Part shown: positions 1,254-55,862 of the stretch, piece by piece
Layout of the letters: every line of letters begins with the position of its first letter
How positions within the stretch are numbered: the stretch's first letter is position 1
From: Melioribacteraceae bacterium
Lineage (GTDB): Bacteria; Bacteroidota; Ignavibacteria; Ignavibacteriales; Melioribacteraceae
Length of the DNA: 64,000 nt
NCBI GenBank assembly: GCA_027030245.1
Contig: JALVFE010000021.1
Location: 62,001-126,000 of the forward strand
Direction: 5' to 3'
Notes under the pieces: generated by a model
The model's input: only the letters and a program-made list of their open reading frames with translations
Database searches by the model: none
What the model was told of the DNA's origin: nothing
Translations under genes and position numbers: made by a program

Positions 1254-2507
1254 TTAAGCTTTAACTGTTTGATTTTTTATTTCGTCCATCCAATCGTCAA
1301 TATCTTTGGCATATTGAACCACTTCAACCATTGAACTGTCGTATCCGAAAAATTTATACGAAATACTTAAACTGTCTAAAATATCACGGGCATAACCCAT
1401 TCCTCTTATCAGGTTTGGTCCGCCGCGACCAACAACCACGTAAATATTGGGTTTGCCGTTTTGTGCAACGTATTCTTTCAAAGCATCGAACATTGCTTTG
1501 AACGTAACGAAAATATCAGTGTTGTTTGCCTTCCCTCCGATTATTAAAAGAACGTTGCTTTGTTTTAACCAATGCTTATAAACTATTTTTGCAATTTCGT
1601 ACATTTTGTCGTAAGGCGGATTTCCTCCAAAATCGCTGGAAATGGTTGCTTTTTTACCGAGTGTTTCCGTAGCCGCACTGTTAGCACCTCCGCCGAACAT
1701 GAAAGCGGTAACCGTTCCGTAGGGATTAATTACAACAACATCGCTCTGACCTCGGTAAGTTCTAAGCTGATTTATTTCCTCTTCAAACTGACTCATATCG
1801 GTTTGAAAAATTTCCATCGGTAAATTAAGTCTCTGCCACTGATGGTTATCCCGGTCGAACTGGGCTTTAAAATCGCACGCATACGTAATTAGTTTCCCTT
1901 TCTCGTTTTTTAACCGGATAGGATTAATCTCGAGCATCATAAAGCCGAAATCGTTGTAAAGGTTCCATAGTTTCGGTAAGTGCTGGGCTAATGGTGATAT
2001 AATTTCGCGCGGAGCGTTTATTTCCGTAAGTGCATCAATAATGTGATAAGTTTTAAGTCCCGTTATCGGATCGAAAGTACCTTCGTAAATTTCGCCGGGT
2101 TCCAATTCTTCAATATCAACACCTCCGTGATGAGTAAGAGTGAAATTTACTTTTCTTGTTTTTGTAGATACATGTAGATTAAAATAAATTTCGTACGAAG
2201 CCGGAATAAACTCCTCGAAAGTAACTCCGTTTGCTTGAATTACTCTGTCATGAAACAGATGCTGGGCAAAATAAAGTTTTCTCTTAGCTGCCATTGCTTC
2301 GATAGGGGAATCAACGATTTTTACCAACCCGGCTTTGCCTTTTTTCCCAACTCCACCGTAAAAGACAGGTTTTACAACGCATTTTCCTTCTTTGCTCATC
2401 AATTGTTCTACTTCTTCCAAAGTCGCGTCGGCATCCAAAATCATTGGGGTAGGAAATTTTGCAGTATCCAATATTTGTTTGCCGTATTTCATTCCGGTAA
2501 TTTGCAT
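1254..2507 (-). CDS. aclB: ATP-citrate lyase, small (beta) subunit
   Basis: This 417-residue protein is the ATP-grasp/CoA-ligase-beta type subunit that pairs with AclA, a little longer than the ~400 residues usual for AclB. The N-terminal part (about 1-240) is the ATP-grasp fold, with VKPVFYGGVGKKGKAGLV near residue 46 and the metal-site segment MMLEINPIRL near 190. The C-terminal part (about 255-410) is the flavodoxin-like CoA-ligase domain with the glycine-rich FMFGGGANSAATETLG near 270 and VVGRGGPNLIRGMGYA near 365. A GGGAGAAG ribosome site supports the ATG at 2507. It is the first gene of aclBA and faces the divergent ligase cluster across a ~290-bp gap. Citryl-CoA synthetase of the Hydrogenobacter type is the main alternative; the long AclA partner argues against it. 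Confidence 0.88.
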   Translation of the reverse strand: MQITGMKYGKQILDTAKFPTPMILDADATLEEVEQLMSKEGKCVVKPVFYGGVGKKGKAGLVKIVDSPIEAMAAKRKLYFAQHLFHDRVIQANGVTFEEFIPASYEIYFNLHVSTKTRKVNFTLTHHGGVDIEELEPGEIYEGTFDPITGLKTYHIIDALTEINAPREIISPLAQHLPKLWNLYNDFGFMMLEINPIRLKNEKGKLITYACDFKAQFDRDNHQWQRLNLPMEIFQTDMSQFEEEINQLRTYRGQSDVVVINPYGTVTAFMFGGGANSAATETLGKKATISSDFGGNPPYDKMYEIAKIVYKHWLKQSNVLLIIGGKANNTDIFVTFKAMFDALKEYVAQNGKPNIYVVVGRGGPNLIRGMGYARDILDSLSISYKFFGYDSSMVEVVQYAKDIDDWMDEIKNQTVKA

Positions 2508-2799: not shown

Positions 2800-3777
2800 A
2801 TGAAAAAAATCGGAATTCTGTTCGGTCAGGAAAACACTTTTCCGCAAGCTTTTGTAGAAAGAGTTAACTCGAAAAAAGTTGACGGCATAAAAGCCGAGTT
2901 TGTAAAAATCAATAAAGTAATTCAAGGCGAGCCGGTAGAATATGACGTTATTATCGATAGAATTTCGCAAGATATACCGTTTTACCGAAGTTATTTGAAA
3001 AATGCCGCATTAACAGGAACGGCGGTAATCAATAATCCCTTTTGGTGGAGCGCAGACGAAAAGTTTTTTAACAATGCGCTTGCTACCAAGATTGACGTGC
3101 ATGTTCCAAAAACCGTGTTATTACCTTCTAACCAGCATCCTCCGGATACCAACGAAATGTCGATGAGAAATCTTGAGTATCCGCTTGATTGGGACGGTAT
3201 TTTTGAATATGTAGGATTTCCGGCTTTCTTCAAACCTTTTGCAGGCGGCGGATGGAAAAACGTTTACAAAATCCATAACAGAGACGAATTTTTCCAAATT
3301 TATAATTCAACAGGAACGCTTGTGATGATGTTGCAAGAGGCAATAGAATTTACCGATTATTTCCGTTGTTATTGTTTGGACAGACGCGATGTTAGGATAA
3401 TGCAATACGACCCAAATCAACCGCATCATTTGAGATATGTTAAAAATCCAAAACCGGTAGAATCGAAATTACTAAAGCGAATGGAGGAAGATGTTCTCAA
3501 AATTAATAATGCTCTTGGTTATGATTTTAATACGGTAGAACTGGCAATACGAGACGGAATACCTTACGCAATTGATTTCGGTAATCCGGCACCGGATGCC
3601 GATCTTTATTCGGTTGGGGAAGAAAATTTCGAATGGGTTGTTGAAGCCGCCGCAAACATGGCGATAAGACGGGCTAAAAACCATAAACCGGGAACTAATA
3701 ATTTAACATGGGGTAACTTTATAACTACTTTTGCAAACAACCAAAAACTAGTATCAAATAAATTAAAAGCAAAATAA
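2800..3777 (+). CDS. ATP-grasp family ligase (RimK-like)
   Basis: A 325-residue protein with an ATP-grasp layout: an N-terminal Rossmann-like region starting MKKIGILFGQENTFP, a central nucleotide-binding strand-loop at FPAFFKPFAGGGWKNVY (about residues 144-160), and a C-terminal metal-site strand AIDFGNPAPDADLY (about 262-275). Enzymes of this fold join a carboxylate, activated as acyl phosphate, to an amine or thiol. The substrate cannot be told from the sequence. The start has AAGGG upstream. It is first of three tightly spaced plus-strand genes (4 bp to the next), the second being a GCS2-type ligase and the third another ATP-grasp-like protein, so it probably performs one condensation of a multi-step amide or peptide synthesis. 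No signal peptide; cytoplasmic. Confidence 0.75.
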   Translation: MKKIGILFGQENTFPQAFVERVNSKKVDGIKAEFVKINKVIQGEPVEYDVIIDRISQDIPFYRSYLKNAALTGTAVINNPFWWSADEKFFNNALATKIDVHVPKTVLLPSNQHPPDTNEMSMRNLEYPLDWDGIFEYVGFPAFFKPFAGGGWKNVYKIHNRDEFFQIYNSTGTLVMMLQEAIEFTDYFRCYCLDRRDVRIMQYDPNQPHHLRYVKNPKPVESKLLKRMEEDVLKINNALGYDFNTVELAIRDGIPYAIDFGNPAPDADLYSVGEENFEWVVEAAANMAIRRAKNHKPGTNNLTWGNFITTFANNQKLVSNKLKAK

Positions 3778-3781
3778 AGTC

Positions 3782-4891
3782 ATGACAGACCAACTTTTTT
3801 CACTGGGAATAGAGGAAGAATTCCAGATTGTTGATCCGAAAACACGCGAGTTGAAATCGCATGTTCAGCAACTTTTGGAAGACGGTAAAATGGTTCTGAA
3901 AGAACAAATAAAAGCCGAAATGCACCAATCCGTTGTTGAAGCTGGATCGACAATTTGTGCAAATATTCAAGAGGCAAGGGAAGAGGTAGTCAAGTTAAGA
4001 ACCAACATTGCAAAAGTAGCCGACCTACACGGTTTGAAAATCGCTTCTGCCGGCACACATCCTTTTTCACGTTGGGAAGATCAAGCGATAACAAACCACC
4101 CGAGGTATCAGGAAGTTGTACACGATATGCAGCAGGTGGCGCGCGCAAATCTGATATTCGGTTTGCACGTCCACGTCGGCATTGCAGATAAAGAGATGGC
4201 AATTCATATAATGAATGCGGCAAGATATTTTCTTCCGCATATTTACGCATTGTCCACCAATTCACCGTTCTGGAAAGGCAGAAATACCGGATTCAAATCT
4301 TACAGGGCAAAAATATTCGATCGTTTCCCGCGAACGGGAATACCCGATTATTTTAACAGTCACGACGAATTTAAAAGATACGTAGAGCTTCTCGTAAAAA
4401 CCAATTGTATAGAAGATGCAAGTAAAATTTGGTGGGATATACGTCCTCATCCGAAATATCCTACGTTGGAGTTTAGAGTTTGCGACGTTCAACTGAGAGT
4501 GGATGAAACAATTGCCCTTGCGGCTTTAATGCAAGCAATAGTTGCAAAATTATATAAACTGATTAAACAAAACTTGGGATTCAGACTTTACCGGAGACTT
4601 TACATTAACGAAAACAAATGGCGCGCCAGTAGATACGGTATCGATGCGAAACTGATTGATTTCGGAAAGCAAGCCGAAGTTGATACGCACGTTTTAATCG
4701 ACGAATTACTTGAATTTGTAGATGATGTTGTTGATGATTTGGGAAGCAGGGAAGAACTGAATTACATCCATAAAATTCTTAAATACGGTACCGGTGCCGA
4801 TAGGCAACTACGTGTATGGGAACAAACAAAAGATTTGCGCAAAGTGGTTGATTATATTATCGACGAAACATATAAGGGAATAAATATCTAA
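3782..4891 (+). CDS. GCS2-type carboxylate-amine ligase (YbdK family)
   Basis: This 369-residue protein opens with the family signature SLGIEEEFQIVDPKTREL and carries HVHVGI (about residue 129) and the ISTNSPFW-like segment ALSTNSPFWKGRNTGFKSYR (about 156-175), all typical of the GCS2/YbdK branch of the glutamine-synthetase-fold ligases. Family members form gamma-glutamyl or related amides using ATP; E. coli YbdK has weak glutamate-cysteine ligase activity. It starts 4 bp after the preceding ATP-grasp gene and is followed after 18 bp by a second ATP-grasp-like gene, so translation is probably coupled. Neighbours do not include a recognisable glutathione synthetase, so the product need not be glutathione; what amine or acid is joined is unknown. 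Confidence 0.85.
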   Translation: MTDQLFSLGIEEEFQIVDPKTRELKSHVQQLLEDGKMVLKEQIKAEMHQSVVEAGSTICANIQEAREEVVKLRTNIAKVADLHGLKIASAGTHPFSRWEDQAITNHPRYQEVVHDMQQVARANLIFGLHVHVGIADKEMAIHIMNAARYFLPHIYALSTNSPFWKGRNTGFKSYRAKIFDRFPRTGIPDYFNSHDEFKRYVELLVKTNCIEDASKIWWDIRPHPKYPTLEFRVCDVQLRVDETIALAALMQAIVAKLYKLIKQNLGFRLYRRLYINENKWRASRYGIDAKLIDFGKQAEVDTHVLIDELLEFVDDVVDDLGSREELNYIHKILKYGTGADRQLRVWEQTKDLRKVVDYIIDETYKGINI

Positions 4892-4909
4892 ATAAAGGTA
4901 AATATAACC

Positions 4910-6085
4910 ATGGTTCGGGAATTACGGGAGAAGTTTAACGCCGATTTCACTGACGAAAAATATAATGCTTTAATAAACGATATTGAAAACAAGATTAACC
5001 GGAAGTTGGATTTCAGAATTTGTGAAACGCCATTATTTCTTGACAAAAAGAACATTACTGTTTTAGTTGACGCTGCTTACGAAATTGCCGGTATAATCGA
5101 AAAAATTGATTTTGGAAACTCACACCGTACATTCGTGCCGGAAAAATATTTTGTGCCCAACGAAGATTCGCATCCGTTATTTCTTCAAATTGATTTTGCC
5201 ATAACACGGGACGAAGAGGGAAATATTCTTCCGCAACTAATTGAGCTGCAAGGTTTTCCGTCGCTCTATAACTTTCAAGCATTTTTGGATTCCGAGCTCC
5301 GGAAGTTTTATGATTTGCCCTCGGAACTTACTCCTTATTTTAACGGACTCGATTACGATTCGTACATCGAAAAACTTAAAAGGGCAATGATTGGTGATTC
5401 GAATCCCGAAAATGTTATTCTACTTGAAATAGACCCGTACAACCAAAAGACATGGATAGATTTTCATATTGCCGAGATGCAACTTGGGATTAAACCCGTA
5501 TGTATTAGCGACGTAATTCAAGAAGGGAAAAATTTGTATTATGAAATAGACGGAAGGAAAATAAAAATCGATAAAATTTATAATCGAGTTATTTTTGATG
5601 AATTGGAACGCAGCGAAATTAAACCGAGTTTCAATTTTTTCGAAGAATTTAACGTAACTTGGCTCAGTCATCCCAATTGGTTTTTCAAAATAAGTAAAAA
5701 TATTTTGCCATTGATTAAAAGTAAATATGCTCCGCCTTCTTATTATTTGGATGAACTTTCAGTTTATCCCGGAGACTTGGAAAATTATGTTTTGAAACCT
5801 TTGTTTTCGTTTGCCGGTTCGGGTGTTAAAATAGAAATTTCCCAAAACGATTTGGATAAAATAAAAGACAAAGAAAATTATATTTTGCAACGAAAAGTAA
5901 AATACGAACCGGTTATTAAAACTCCCGACGGTTATGCAAAGGCGGAAGTAAGAATGATGTTTTTATGGGAAGATAAACCCGAACTTGTAAATAATTTATT
6001 AAGAGTTAGCAAAGGGAAAATGATAGGCGTCGATTACAACAAAAATAAAACTTGGGTAGGCGCAAATATAATGTATCACGAATAA
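4910..6085 (+). CDS. putative ATP-grasp-like ligase
   Basis: A 391-residue cytoplasmic protein. Near residues 296-310 it has YVLKPLFSFAGSGVKI, which fits the lysine and glycine-rich loop of ATP-grasp enzymes, and a late AEVRMMFLWEDKPELVNNLLR (from about 345) that could supply metal-binding residues. The N-terminal half contains a characteristic LIELQGFPSLYNFQAF segment (about 105-121) that I do not connect to a named family. The gene closes the three-ligase cluster; AAAGG lies nine bases before its ATG. The ATP-grasp assignment rests on few motifs and on the company it keeps, so the specific reaction is open. A stem-loop lies right after the gene. Confidence 0.55.
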   Translation: MVRELREKFNADFTDEKYNALINDIENKINRKLDFRICETPLFLDKKNITVLVDAAYEIAGIIEKIDFGNSHRTFVPEKYFVPNEDSHPLFLQIDFAITRDEEGNILPQLIELQGFPSLYNFQAFLDSELRKFYDLPSELTPYFNGLDYDSYIEKLKRAMIGDSNPENVILLEIDPYNQKTWIDFHIAEMQLGIKPVCISDVIQEGKNLYYEIDGRKIKIDKIYNRVIFDELERSEIKPSFNFFEEFNVTWLSHPNWFFKISKNILPLIKSKYAPPSYYLDELSVYPGDLENYVLKPLFSFAGSGVKIEISQNDLDKIKDKENYILQRKVKYEPVIKTPDGYAKAEVRMMFLWEDKPELVNNLLRVSKGKMIGVDYNKNKTWVGANIMYHE

Positions 6086-6094
6086 ACGGTTGAT

Positions 6095-6125
6095 AAAAAA
6101 CCTGCCGGAGAAAAATCCCCGGCAG
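6095..6125 (-). terminator. rho-independent terminator of the phosphofructokinase gene
   Basis: CTGCCGG (6102-6108) pairs with CCGGCAG (6119-6125) around a 10-base loop. On the minus strand the stem is followed by a run of six T, so it ends the minus-strand phosphofructokinase transcript. It sits between two convergent genes and may also slow plus-strand transcription, although the plus side lacks a T tract. Confidence 0.7.
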
Positions 6126-6145
6126 AAAAGTAAAGTAAAAATTTA

Positions 6146-7348
6146 TTAATCGCTTGCCATAATAAACAAAGGTTTCGATTCGAAACTCTTGTAAAACGGT
6201 CGCAGTCTTTCCGTGTTGTAATATTTTTCAACGTCAACTTTTTTCTTAAAGCTCGTAACAATTTCTATTTGTTGATTATCGTATCTACCGTTTTTCAAAG
6301 TAACCAGACGGCCGTGAGTGTTATCGAGAATCAAATCCAGAGCCAAATTACCGAAAGCCATCGGAACAATAGAATCGATTGCGTCCGGATTTCCGCAGCG
6401 CACGAGATACCCTAAACGTTGATTAATAACATTAATCCTTCTTCCGTTATTGTATTTAGGCGAAAGCTCTTTCAACTTTCTTGAAACCAAATCTCCGATA
6501 CCGCCGAGTTTTTTATGACCGAACATATCTTTCTCTTCACTTTCAAAAATCATTTCCGCACCATCAAACATAGCGCCTTCGGAGACGAGAACAACCGAAT
6601 ATTTACTTGGATTTGTGTAGCGGTCTGCAACAAGCAATTCAGTTAACCGTTCCATATCGAATTTATATTCGGGAATAACGCATCGGTTGGCAGCGCCCGC
6701 CATCGTGGGAAGAAGGGCAGTGAATCCGGCATAACGTCCGAATACTTCGATTACCAAAAATCTTTCGTGTGATCCGGCTGTAGTTCTTAAATTATGTGTT
6801 AATTCAATTGTTCTGGTAACGCAAGTGCTAAACCCGATGCAATAATCCGTCCCCGGAACGTCATTATCCATAGTTTTAGGTATGGCTACAACGTTTACTC
6901 CTTCTTTGTGAAGACGGACGCCGTAGCTCAATGTATCGTCGCCACCGATTGGAATTAAATGGTCTATGCCTAAAAATTCCAAATTTTTTAATACTTCAGG
7001 GGTTAAATCATTCACATCGTCTGTATAAGTATCTTTGAGATGTTCGGGAACAACCTCTTTGGGAACATGGCTCGGACGGGTGCGGGATGAATGCAAGAAC
7101 GTTCCACCGGTTCTACCTGCTTTATTAACTATTTCTTCGGAAAGATAAGTAAAATTACTACTGTTATCGTATTTTTTATCACGGACTATATCAATCATTC
7201 CGCCCCAGCCACGTCTTATACCGACAACTTTAAAACCTTCTCTCAAAGCACGAATTGTAATGGCACGGATTGCCGGATTTAATCCGGGCACATCGCCGCC
7301 CCCGGTTAAAATTCCAATTACACCTTTAATCTTATTAATGTTTGCCAT
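6146..7348 (-). CDS. pfp: 6-phosphofructokinase, pyrophosphate-type signatures
   Basis: A 400-residue PfkA-superfamily enzyme that phosphorylates fructose 6-phosphate to fructose 1,6-bisphosphate in glycolysis. GGGD at 16-19 and the active-site PKTMDNDVPGTD from 157 are visible. Two positions that separate phosphoryl donors read as the PPi type: GGDD at 135-138 (ATP enzymes have GGDG) and Lys158 in PKTMDND (ATP enzymes have PGTIDND). From family knowledge this predicts a reversible PPi-dependent enzyme, though donor choice is inferred. AGAGGTGA precedes the ATG. The gene is monocistronic by appearance, with its own terminator, and lies downstream of two sodium symporter genes on the same strand. 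Confidence 0.85.
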   Translation of the reverse strand: MANINKIKGVIGILTGGGDVPGLNPAIRAITIRALREGFKVVGIRRGWGGMIDIVRDKKYDNSSNFTYLSEEIVNKAGRTGGTFLHSSRTRPSHVPKEVVPEHLKDTYTDDVNDLTPEVLKNLEFLGIDHLIPIGGDDTLSYGVRLHKEGVNVVAIPKTMDNDVPGTDYCIGFSTCVTRTIELTHNLRTTAGSHERFLVIEVFGRYAGFTALLPTMAGAANRCVIPEYKFDMERLTELLVADRYTNPSKYSVVLVSEGAMFDGAEMIFESEEKDMFGHKKLGGIGDLVSRKLKELSPKYNNGRRINVINQRLGYLVRCGNPDAIDSIVPMAFGNLALDLILDNTHGRLVTLKNGRYDNQQIEIVTSFKKKVDVEKYYNTERLRPFYKSFESKPLFIMASD

Positions 7349-7413: not shown

Positions 7414-9009
7414 TTATTTCTTTCTATAAACCGGATGATCGATTGCAAAATATTCTTTAGTCATTTTTTTCAGTTTTGACGACAACAAAATAATTGCGAT
7501 TAAATTCGGGAAAGTCATAAATCCTAATGCGGCATCTCCGAAATCCCAAACTTGTTCCAATTCGGCAATTGCACCGATAAAGACAAACAAAACGAAAACC
7601 CATTTATATGGAAGTATTGCTTTAGGACCAAATAAATAATCTGTGGCTCTATCACCGTAAAACGACCAGCTGATAGCGGTTGAAATGGCAAATAACAGAA
7701 CTGAAATTGTAACTATTTTATCTCCGTAAGCAAAAAGCCAGCTCAATCCTTGTTTAAAAGCATACGATGTTAACAAACTGCTGTTCATCAACTCACCGGT
7801 AAATTTCGGATCAACATGTTTAACAAAGAACTCGGTATGTTGCCAAGCACCAGTGGAAATGATAACCAAACCGGTTAAAGAACAAATAATGATTGTATCG
7901 ATAAACGGGCCAAGCATTGCAACCGAGCCTTCGCGAACCGCATATTTTGTTTTAGCAGTGGAATGGGCAATTGCAGCGCTGCCTTGTCCGGCTTCGTTTG
8001 AATAAAGTCCGCGTTTTACTCCCCAAAGCATAGTGTTAAGCATAATAAGGAAAGTTCCGCCGCCAACTCCCGCAACTTGGGAAGGCGGATTGAAAGCCAT
8101 TTGAAAAATCAAAGAGAAGCTTTCGCCTAGTTTATCGAAATTTCCCAATAATATTAACGCGGTTGAAAACACATAAATGATTGCCATAAACGGTGCCAAG
8201 AATCCGGTAACCTTGCCGATTCTTTTAATTCCACCGATAATTACCAGCCCTACAATAAATGACAATACCAAGCCGTTAATTACCTGCTCGACGGAAACAC
8301 TAAAACCACTGAATATTTGATGTTTTATTGTTAAAAAATGATCTGTGCCAACGATTTGAGCAACTTCGGAATAAATTTGATCCGATACGGTAAAAGATTG
8401 AATTGCATTTCCGGTGGCAAAAGAACAAATAACGGCGAATATGGCAAAAGATACAGCAAGCCATCGCCATTTCATTCCAAGTCCTTTTTCGATTGTGTAC
8501 ATCGGACCGCCGGCTGTATGACCGTCCGGGTCAAAATCTCTGTATTTCAAAGCAAGCGTACTTTCCGCATATTTAAGAGTTGTACCGAAGAAAGCCGTTA
8601 TCCACATCCAAAATAAAGCGCCGGGACCGCCATAATACAAAGCCGTTGCTACACCGGCAATATTTCCGATTCCCACGGTTGCGGAAAGCGCAGTTGACAA
8701 AGCACGGAAATGATTAAGATCACCGGCATCTTCCGGATTATCATAGACTCCGGCTGTAACTTTTATTCCATGCCATAAATATTTTATTTGCGGAAAACCG
8801 AGTTTAAAAGTTACATAAACGCCTGTTCCCACAAGCGCAATTACCATTAAAGGAATTGAACCGAGCGGCGTGTCCTTGCTCGGAAAGTTTTTGAAGAAAT
8901 CGAAATTTCCCGGAAAACTCCAGATTGCAGTAAAAAATGAAACGCCCCAAAAGTAAAGTATTATTCCAATTATTACTAAAATTACTAATGCAAAAGTTTT
9001 TCTAGACAT
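7414..9009 (-). CDS. sodium:alanine symporter (AGCS family)
   Basis: A ~531-residue inner-membrane protein with about 10-11 hydrophobic segments. AGCS hallmarks are visible: ALSATVGIGNIAGVATAL near residue 108, YGGPGALFWMWITAFFG just after it, and KYAESTLALKYR. The family imports alanine or glycine with sodium. The ATG at 9009 is preferred over an in-frame TTG two codons earlier because neither has a strong ribosome site and the family usually starts on ATG. The next gene upstream is a second sodium-coupled amino-acid transporter 28 bp away, suggesting co-transcription for amino-acid uptake. Confidence 0.9.
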   Translation of the reverse strand: MSRKTFALVILVIIGIILYFWGVSFFTAIWSFPGNFDFFKNFPSKDTPLGSIPLMVIALVGTGVYVTFKLGFPQIKYLWHGIKVTAGVYDNPEDAGDLNHFRALSTALSATVGIGNIAGVATALYYGGPGALFWMWITAFFGTTLKYAESTLALKYRDFDPDGHTAGGPMYTIEKGLGMKWRWLAVSFAIFAVICSFATGNAIQSFTVSDQIYSEVAQIVGTDHFLTIKHQIFSGFSVSVEQVINGLVLSFIVGLVIIGGIKRIGKVTGFLAPFMAIIYVFSTALILLGNFDKLGESFSLIFQMAFNPPSQVAGVGGGTFLIMLNTMLWGVKRGLYSNEAGQGSAAIAHSTAKTKYAVREGSVAMLGPFIDTIIICSLTGLVIISTGAWQHTEFFVKHVDPKFTGELMNSSLLTSYAFKQGLSWLFAYGDKIVTISVLLFAISTAISWSFYGDRATDYLFGPKAILPYKWVFVLFVFIGAIAELEQVWDFGDAALGFMTFPNLIAIILLSSKLKKMTKEYFAIDHPVYRKK

Positions 9010-9037
9010 TTCCAAAATACAGTTAGTTTGTGAAGAA

Positions 9038-54899: not shown

Positions 54900-55862
54900 T
54901 CAGCTAACCAGTAATTTCCCGTTCTTCATAATGATTTTGTTGTCAAAATAAACAGTCGGTTTTTTAATCACTCCGTCAACGTGAATCGGTACACTGACGT
55001 TACCGCCCATTGATTTATTATTGCCTAACGCAATATGAACGGTTCCCAAAACTTTTTCGTCTTCCAAAAGGTTACCGCTAAGTTTGGCTTTATCGTTTGT
55101 TCCTATACCAAGTTCGGCAATATTTCTTCCTTTCTTTCCGAATTTCGATAACATTCTCACCAGTTTTCTTGCCTCGGTGCCACCCGTAATTTTTGTTGCA
55201 TACCCTTTTTCAACTTTAATCCGGATAGGATTTTTAACAACGCCGATTCCCGCCATGGAACCGTCAACTACAAAAATCCCGTTAGATTTTCCTTCAAGCG
55301 GCGCAACGAAAGCTTCGCCGGTCGGAAGATTTCCGCTTTCCCCTTTTTTATGAAACAAACCTTTGCTCGGTATAGCTTTTCGACCTGCTATTTCCAATTC
55401 GATATCCGTTCCATTTGGTGCGGTTACGCGAACCGTTTTTGTTTTTTCAAGTAATTTAGTCAGTTTAATCGTTAACCGTGCAATCTTTTTATAATCGGCA
55501 TTCAATCCTCTAATCATTACATCTTTAGTTATTCCCGGAAAAGTTGCTATTCTTACTCCCTTTGCCGAAGCATTTCTTCTTGCATCGGTATGCGTAAGGG
55601 ATTTTGTGGTCGGACATAAAACAACATCAAACTTTTGCATTAGTTCTGCAATAACAGCGGGCGGTTCTTCGCCGTGATAATTAAGAGCTTTCATCTCAAC
55701 GAATAAACTTTTATGACCGAGCCGGAGCGCATTTTGGTATAAAGAGTAACCGATTTCCCTTTTATTTTCATCCGTTATAACGAGAACGGATTCCTTCTTT
55801 TTTGCTCCCATACAATCTTTAATTGCAATAATGGAAGCTTTATCCAACTTTGTTAATCCCAT
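54900..55862 (-). CDS. M29-type aminopeptidase / NicX-like protein
   Basis: A 320-residue protein matching the thermophilic aminopeptidase (M29) superfamily: ELGIGTNDKAKLSGNLLEDEKVLGTVHIALGNN (about 245-277) holds the conserved Glu and metal-site His, and PVHVDG near 293 the later His. The N-terminal Rossmann-like half (about 1-130) includes GEEPPAVIAELMQKFDVVLCPTTKSLTHTDARR. It probably removes N-terminal residues from peptides in the cytoplasm, though 2,5-dihydroxypyridine dioxygenases share the fold. AGGAAAT ribosome site; 12 bp beyond the outer-membrane-type gene. Confidence 0.8.
   Translation of the reverse strand: MGLTKLDKASIIAIKDCMGAKKKESVLVITDENKREIGYSLYQNALRLGHKSLFVEMKALNYHGEEPPAVIAELMQKFDVVLCPTTKSLTHTDARRNASAKGVRIATFPGITKDVMIRGLNADYKKIARLTIKLTKLLEKTKTVRVTAPNGTDIELEIAGRKAIPSKGLFHKKGESGNLPTGEAFVAPLEGKSNGIFVVDGSMAGIGVVKNPIRIKVEKGYATKITGGTEARKLVRMLSKFGKKGRNIAELGIGTNDKAKLSGNLLEDEKVLGTVHIALGNNKSMGGNVSVPIHVDGVIKKPTVYFDNKIIMKNGKLLVS

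Follow-up and report, generated by a model that had tools for sequence, protein, structure and literature searches.

A 64,000-nucleotide stretch of the genome of a Melioribacteraceae bacterium (GenBank assembly GCA_027030245.1, 3.8 Mb, here coded G000), positions 62001-126000 of contig JALVFE010000021.1 (C21) and called the window from here on, carries three intact, co-directional open reading frames (ORFs), p1, p2 and p3, spaced by 4 bp (p1/p2) and 18 bp (p2/p3). The initial annotation of this DNA had read them as three amide-bond-forming enzymes in one transcript; its coordinates are exact (Table 1), and its enzyme assignment agrees with ours, p1 and p3 being predicted ATP-grasp proteins by fold and p2 a GCS2 protein by score. 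It is the gene spacing alone that suggests a single transcript for p1-p2-p3. Enzymes of all three ligase classes use ATP and Mg to convert a carboxylate to an acyl phosphate, which is then passed to an amine. We describe below how the trio is conserved, which hydrolases accompany it, and what kind of pathway the set may represent.

Conservation of the trio

The three genes are conserved as one unit. Among 97 genomes, G000 and 96 relatives, p1 is found in 46, p2 in 45 and p3 in 44, and the same 44 genomes are common to all three. Two genomes are counted as non-trio: G002, from the window's genus (g1), in which p1 is whole, p2 is cut at a contig end, p3 has no match and GAT, the class-I amidotransferase-like protein described below, is present; and G088, where, at C13:36921-38621, a divergent p1 (63%) adjoins an esterase homolog and the genome has no match to p2, p3 or GAT. 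What G088 carries may be a reduced version of the pathway, or a remnant of it. Loci were read from 20 of the 43 relatives with p3, and all 20 have the genes in the order p1-p2-p3, as do all 61 named loci that hold the three genes. The set of named loci numbers 80, the best among at least 580 confirmed p3 relatives, and the figure of 61 out of 80 is a lower bound, several contigs being short; at p3 loci such as L063, L074, L109, L115 and L131, the absence of p1 and p2 applies to the fetched stretch only. Going by their record titles, the 80 loci come mainly from Ignavibacteria and other Bacteroidota, and they also include Verrucomicrobia, Calditrichaeota and Thermoanaerobaculia, which as metagenome-assembled genomes may be contaminated.

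In a phylum-wide set of 345 genomes, G000 included, p1 is found in 118, p2 in 115, p3 in 103 and all three in 94. The trio is kept where its genes lie far apart, so that the co-occurrence is not caused by linkage: in G135, which is one contig, p1 lies at 0.48 Mb, p2 at 0.74 Mb and p3 at 1.23 Mb, and in G149, G219, G230 and G362 at least one trio gene is far from the others. Spread of the trio by plasmids was considered and set aside, since a tblastn search of the plasmid collection gave no match to p3.

Enzyme classes and active sites

By its scores p2 is a full member of the GCS2/PRK13515 family, with 235 bits to GCS2 (PF04107; cut-off 21) and 562 bits to PRK13515 (NF010039; cut-off 371); its nearest solved structure by profile is E. 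coli YbdK (1r8g, E 3e-59), and it is the sole GCS2 match in G000. The G-h-E-x-E signature of carboxylate-amine ligases, as given in PMC2588565, reads G9-I-E11-E-E13 in p2; 92 of the 95 aligned sequences retain it, and the remaining three are gapped there. For this and the other counts of invariant residues, proteins outside 0.85-1.2 of the median length were dropped, which left 87 of 96 sequences for p1, 95 of 98 for p2, 112 of 112 for p3, 52 of 53 for the esterase HYD, 42 of 42 for GAT and 19 of 24 for the M29 peptidase.

p1 is placed by its predicted fold as an ATP-grasp protein of the Ddl/LysX/RimK type, and by sequence it is far from any named family; its match to the RimK family TIGR00768 (E 1.3e-5, 24.7 bits) is below the cut-off of 143.4. 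The AlphaFold2 (AF2) model is of middling quality, with a predicted local distance difference test score (pLDDT) of 78.5, and it returned 518 Foldseek matches at E <= 0.001; Ddl, ArgX, LysX and RimK are matched at E of about 1e-13 to 1e-11 and, with synapsin and graspetide ligases, are among the 50 matches listed. Invariant in 87 sequences are K145 (the nucleotide lysine), G149-G151 (the Gly-rich loop), D259 and N262.

p3 is placed by fold alone, since its sequence searches were all weak: it was nearly silent in phmmer, in a profile search and in hhalign against YgiC and Gss (probability 14.5 for the p3 profile against YgiC), and its match to GSP_synth (PF03738; E 0.025, 14.2 bits) does not reach the family cut-off of 29.3. 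Its AF2 model (pLDDT 90.9, predicted template modelling score 0.90) has, as predicted, the ATP-grasp fold of the glutathione synthetase (GS)/Gss class across the whole chain. The structural alignment to YgiC by VIA-align gives a Z of 25.1 over 342 residues, with a root-mean-square deviation of 3.7 and 14% identity, followed by YjfC (24.6), Gss (23.4), homoglutathione synthetase (23.0), human GS (22.9) and Cp1B (22.5), values so close that the model singles out no substrate class; the first Foldseek match is 3n6x, a solved putative glutathionylspermidine synthase. Families missing from the fold tables of p1 and p3 are not treated as excluded. The nearest folds of p3 make or extend gamma-Glu-Cys or glutathione-like peptides, or add spermidine; YgiC and YjfC are described as peptide-spermidine ligases (PMC12568646; ygiC likewise by its RefSeq product name).

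The active site of p3 appears to depart from that of these relatives. Its invariant residues in 112 sequences are D95, E112, Q114, K296, E346, R348 and R365. The reference enzymes carry an R-x-D...E-x-N acid-activation motif (R100-x-D in YgiC, R316-x-D in Gss), and Cp1B loses some or all of its activity when R139, D141, E163 or N165 is substituted (PMC12568646). When p3 is matched to this motif by spacing rather than superposition, the Asp (D95) and the Glu (E112) are kept, an Arg two residues before D95 is present in none of the 112 sequences, and Gln (Q114) replaces the Asn of E-x-N in all 112; a loose R-x-D..E-x-N pattern does occur in 15 of the 112, with the 10 listed sitting elsewhere, at residues 182-236. 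p3 thus seems to be without the R-x-D arginine of the Gss/YgiC class and, if the spacing match is correct, would form a separate family within the GS/YgiC fold with an altered active site.

A different permuted ATP-grasp protein is often found where p3 is missing. We read nine p1 regions (14 stretches in all) from the 19 phylum genomes that have p1 without p3; in two of the nine (L178 and L181) p1 is located by the genome search but is not called as an ORF. In seven of these regions there is a gene for another protein, about 450-480 aa long and bearing the motifs R-x-D...E-x-N and K-P-N-D; all seven proteins match CP_ATPgrasp_2 (PF14403) at E 2e-4 or better, three of them over the cut-off, and their profile matches 3n6x at E 1.8e-8. 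An hhalign comparison of the variant profile with the p3 profile is not significant (probability 1), so by sequence the two are not close kin. GAT is encoded in seven of the nine regions, and p2 lies elsewhere in four of the seven variant genomes (G197, G297, G326 and G360). Judged by the variant genomes, the most constant core would be GAT together with two ATP-grasps, one RimK-like and the other permuted and of the GS type, p2 being commonly present though not in every genome.

Hydrolase partners and neighbouring genes

An association with one of two hydrolase-type genes is evident from the loci and from the genomes. GAT scores E 3e-8 against PF00117 (GATase class I), and its triad C107, H210 and E212 is kept in 42 of 42 sequences. 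Among the 80 named loci, GAT is present in 30 and an M29 peptidase in 20, and none has both; GAT lies immediately 5' of p3 in 29 of its 30 loci and M29 in 16 of its 20; elsewhere one or two ORFs intervene. Across the 97 genomes, whose loci include some with neither gene next to p3, 40 trio genomes out of 44 encode GAT, and three of the other four have a close ortholog of M29 (E below 1e-170; other M29 matches are weaker than 1e-30 and are read as paralogs), so that one or the other is found in 43 of 44 trio genomes as against 4 of 53 others, and both in none. The four genomes with GAT outside the full trio are G002 (at its contig break), G014 (40% identity), G039 and G065. In the genera that are mixed for the trio (g31, g32, g35 and g53; 11 genomes), GAT presence tracks the trio in 11 of 11; counting the broken G002 as negative would add the window's genus g1 as a fifth mixed genus, and there GAT is present. 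Two unrelated enzymes alternate in one slot and amide hydrolysis is common to both, which suggests that GAT and M29 act as hydrolases.

A PF00756-type esterase homolog (HYD) lies 5' of p1 in 37 of the 80 named loci and is present in all 44 trio genomes; HYD2, an esterase class of 30-40% identity, is found in 33 of the 44 and in 4 of the 53 others. A second esterase of about 273 aa recurs near p1 or near the first esterase, often divergently, at L142, L144, L146, L149, L150 and L151 and at named loci such as L085, L098 and L106; the copy at L142, the one scanned, scores 80 bits to PF00756. The initial annotation saw no recognisable partner for the trio, which is right for the immediate neighbours and not for the genome, where GAT and PF00756-type esterases are encoded away from it. 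This partner set, GAT or M29 and the esterases, went unnoticed there; it is linked to the trio elsewhere and unlinked in G000.

Two further genes were considered from the surroundings of the unlinked partners. The unlinked GAT has an M24 peptidase gene (PF00557) in its vicinity at 6 of the 12 loci read, in differing orientations and in all six cases in the window's family, to which 11 of the 12 loci belong; no M24 peptidase is found in the ORF sets around the trio. Other repeated neighbours of the unlinked GAT are read as local synteny. A SufE gene is near the second esterase in 5 of 10 loci (adjacent in L166, L167 and L168, in the same stretch in L172 and L175), and it could not be tied to the pathway. 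The window itself also encodes an M29 paralog (27% identity, E 4e-23), and such paralogs are found in most of the 97 genomes, with or without the trio.

The flanks of the trio in the window (Table 1) are seldom kept: the ATP-citrate-lyase-like gene is beside the trio in none of 20 other loci and the phosphofructokinase gene in 1 of 20. The former could bear on the reductive tricarboxylic acid cycle. A PF01235 symporter is directly 3' of p3 in 3 of the 80 named loci (L054, L057 and L064, with L054 and L064 assigned by cluster), directly after p3 at L036/L057, and two genes downstream of p3 in L032. At L071, L082, L085, L088, L091 and L093, a gene named by eye as heavy-metal-associated/AraC-like lies 3' of p3, followed at L071, L085, L088 and L093 by one named, likewise by eye, as a copper-type P-type ATPase. 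Because the T tract of the hairpin 3' of p3 is on the - strand, the hairpin suits the convergent phosphofructokinase gene rather than p3, and it is no evidence for the 3' end of the trio transcript; read as + strand RNA, positions 6083-6145 fold at -15.1 kcal/mol (z -3.65).

Table 1. Positions of the trio, its flanks and the unlinked genes discussed in the text (window positions unless a contig or locus is named).
Feature	Position	Strand	Size	Assignment or setting	Basis
p1	2800-3777	+	325 aa	predicted RimK/Ddl/LysX-type ATP-grasp ligase	ORF, AF2 model and Foldseek
p2	3782-4891	+	369 aa	GCS2-type (YbdK, PRK13515) carboxylate-amine ligase	family scores
p3	4910-6085	+	391 aa	predicted permuted ATP-grasp, eukaryotic glutathione synthetase/YgiC fold class	AF2 model
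Terminator-like hairpin	6101-6126	-		between p3 and the convergent phosphofructokinase gene	11 pairs, 7 G-C
ATP-citrate-lyase-like gene	1254-2507	-		divergent from p1	PF16114 Citrate_bind 70 bits, PF08442 ATP-grasp_2 63 bits
Phosphofructokinase	6146-7348	-		convergent to p3	PF00365 229 bits
Sodium:alanine symporter family protein	7414-9015	-		two genes downstream of p3	PF01235 415 bits
M29 paralog	54906-55838 (G000:C21:116906-117838)	-			
GAT of G000	C13:46375-47196			unlinked to the trio	PF00117 31 bits, over cut-off
M24 metallopeptidase gene	L154:4676-5866	-		G000 contig C13	PF00557
SufE gene	L166:6674-7114	-		G000 contig C23	PF02657

A proposed pathway and its place among known systems

Linked peptide ligases often catalyze successive ligations (PMC4431377). 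We propose, at roughly even odds (about 0.5), that the trio belongs to a dedicated pathway that makes and cleaves a small multi-amide, probably gamma-glutamyl, metabolite. The trio would be the ligase core that builds a small, ribosome-independent amide compound which is later cleaved. p2 would activate a glutamate-type gamma-carboxylate and couple it to an amine or amino acid; p1, of the bacterial glutathione synthetase/RimK type, would form a second acid-amine bond; and p3, of the glutathione synthetase/glutathionylspermidine synthetase/YgiC type, would add an amine or amino acid that extends or caps the product. GAT, or M29 in its place, would cut one amide bond for recycling or deprotection, and the PF00756-type esterases may act on an ester or a further amide. 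The enzyme classes, the conservation as a unit, the partner genes and the alternation of GAT and M29 were computed directly; the order of reactions, the gamma-glutamyl start, the nature of the cap, the direction in which the hydrolase works and the biological role are what we infer. The initial annotation had named the trio as a candidate for an undescribed small-molecule pathway, to be doubted if the trio were not a conserved unit in relatives, if the third gene had no ATP-grasp structure, or if the genes mapped onto a known glutathione-type pathway; all three points were examined and none was found to hold, for the glutathione mapping as far as tested, so the candidacy is supported, and the product may be a small molecule and not a tag on a protein.

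Several observations weigh against this proposal. The Fisher values, 1e-52 to 4e-61 among the trio genes and 1e-21 for GAT or M29 with the trio, ignore the relatedness of the genomes. Within the phylum set, 4 of the 103 genomes with p3 have no p1 and 5 have no p2, while p1 is found without p3 in 19 genomes and p2 without p3 in 17. p2 was not detected in three of the seven variant genomes (G108, G260 and G293), so it may not be an obligate first step. GAT and the M29 ortholog are both missing from one trio genome, G008 (81% complete), and GAT could be a true ammonia-transferring amidotransferase. The esterase homolog is also present in 22 of the 53 non-trio genomes, on which account it was not concluded to be an obligate partner. 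The analogy of p3 to Gss and YgiC with respect to substrate is weak, since the R-x-D arginine is seemingly absent. Finally, 13 weak matches to the GshB family PF02955 (best E 4e-9) pass the family cut-off as given by the search program, 11 of them in trio genomes.

These last matches bear on whether the trio is an ordinary glutathione-type thiol pathway run by unusual enzymes, an idea prompted by the folds, since those used in glutathione synthesis are GCS2, an ATP-grasp like bacterial GS and one like eukaryotic GS. In G000 the GshB family PF02955 is without a match, in a search that did not extend to GshF and other synthetase types; of 15 matches in the 97 genomes, the two strong ones (G012 and G043) are in non-trio genomes. 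The same search is positive in control genomes such as Bacillus subtilis and Methanocaldococcus jannaschii, and for that reason the weak matches are read as probable RimK-like cross-matches. The bacillithiol enzyme BshC is found in 92 of the 97 genomes, 41 of the 44 with the trio and 51 of the 53 others. Both searches argue against a thiol role, and a glutathione pathway is unlikely for the trio; in the form with unusual enzymes we regard it as highly improbable. A less remote alternative, which we still consider unlikely, is a catabolic or detoxification route by gamma-glutamylation, in which p2 would add a gamma-glutamate handle to an amine, p1 and p3 would act on related amines and GAT or M29 would remove the glutamyl group at the end, much as PuuA and PuuD put a gamma-glutamyl handle on putrescine and take it off again. 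The class-I GATase type of GAT, its intact triad, its close pairing with ligases, its replacement by M29, and the PF01235 symporter 3' of p3 in a few loci and two genes on in the window and in L032 would all suit such a route, which nevertheless needs fewer than three ligases; and we recognised neither an oxidase nor an aminotransferase in the recurring trio neighbours examined, not every neighbour having been scanned.

The ligases might instead add amino acids to a protein or peptide, as RimK does on S6, with GAT or M29 trimming the tag; amidoligase and peptidase pairs were reportedly discussed as tagging systems by Iyer in 2009, and p1 is RimK-like by predicted fold and weakly so by sequence. 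We find this quite unlikely: the solved YgiC/GS-type folds act on small peptides, and there is no conserved small ORF near the trio. Among 537 intergenic small ORFs (20-110 aa) from 83 loci, some of which are the same place twice, and with ORFs overlapping long genes removed, the largest groups span 4 of the 83 and lie on the other strand. A graspetide or tag precursor was sought in an earlier scan too, whose eight largest groups all lay upstream of p1, nearly all antisense, and were taken as shadows of the esterase genes. The conserved small precursor gene beside an ATP-grasp gene that marks graspetides, a class of ribosomally synthesized and post-translationally modified peptides (RiPPs), was not found in the 83 loci, and neither was a small ORF for a Pup/Anbu-type tag, the neighbours having been viewed by eye and partly by Pfam, with no search aimed at proteasome-like families. 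Slightly less probable again is a compatible solute or storage dipeptide amide, in which GAT would be a real glutamine amidotransferase making a terminal carboxamide; N-acetylglutaminylglutamine amide (NAGGN) is a precedent for an amide-capped solute, GAT does match GATase class I, and Arenibacter and Hymenobacter are among the hosts of the set. Of GAT and M29, however, only GAT, with its Cys-His-Glu triad, could channel ammonia, and M29, which replaces it, is not known as an ammonia supplier, so that a hydrolase role fits both better; and no NCBIfam match naming the known NAGGN enzymes was seen among the proteins scanned.

Returning to the proposed multi-amide metabolite, we suggest, more tentatively than the pathway itself, that it may be a widely shared, undescribed compound of Bacteroidota and their relatives, made by RimK-like and permuted GS-type ATP-grasps, usually with a GCS2 ligase, and served by an amidase in two unrelated forms; that it may be distinct from glutathione, bacillithiol and murein and not a RiPP; and that it would probably serve general physiology rather than being a strain-specific secondary product. 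Among the papers listed in a literature search, judged on titles and the openings of abstracts, we recognised no description of this gene set. About 27% of the sampled phylum genomes (94 of 345) have the full ligase set, and the cultured genera Arenibacter and Hymenobacter carry the cluster with GAT, so that if one compound is made it would be common and, as far as we have found, unnamed. The exchanges of GAT for M29 and of p3 for another permuted ATP-grasp mark steps of the pathway without giving the identity of its product, and they make a targeted metabolomics test straightforward.

The trio context also gives a setting for the PRK13515 ligases. p2 is a full member of this family by score and signature, and what sets it apart is its tie to p1, p3 and GAT; we know of no settled function for the YbdK/PRK13515 family. 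YgiC and YjfC are the closest solved folds to p3, which differs from YgiC in the low structural identity and hhalign probability given above and which has D95 and E112-x-Q114 without the preceding Arg. PMC2588565 describes a carboxylate-amine ligase next to a GATase-like thiol peptidase and reads the pair as peptide metabolite synthesis; by its account the ligase is of another family, and its main text makes no mention of ATP-grasp; we take it as a precedent for the logic of ligase plus hydrolase and not for membership. Cp1B, from the fungal E-64 pathway, shares a p3-like fold and the stepwise assembly of amides without a nonribosomal peptide synthetase, and differs in acting on epoxysuccinate, in having an ANL-family amide synthetase as partner and in retaining R139, D141, E163 and N165 (PMC12568646).

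The nearest overall likeness may be to GshA-GshB-Gss of E. coli, which likewise combines a gamma-carboxylate ligase of the glutamine synthetase fold, a bacterial-type ATP-grasp, a GS/Gss-type ATP-grasp and a dedicated amidase, Gss being annotated as 'fused glutathionylspermidine amidase/glutathionylspermidine synthetase'. The differences are that p2 is GCS2 and not GshA type 1, that p1 is not GshB by family, that p3 is under the GSP_synth cut-off and seemingly lacks the R-x-D Arg, and that the candidate amidase is a GATase-like or M29 protein instead of the Gss amidase domain. By analogy, the logic of ligase plus amidase at this locus mirrors that of Gss, and its product is presumably another.

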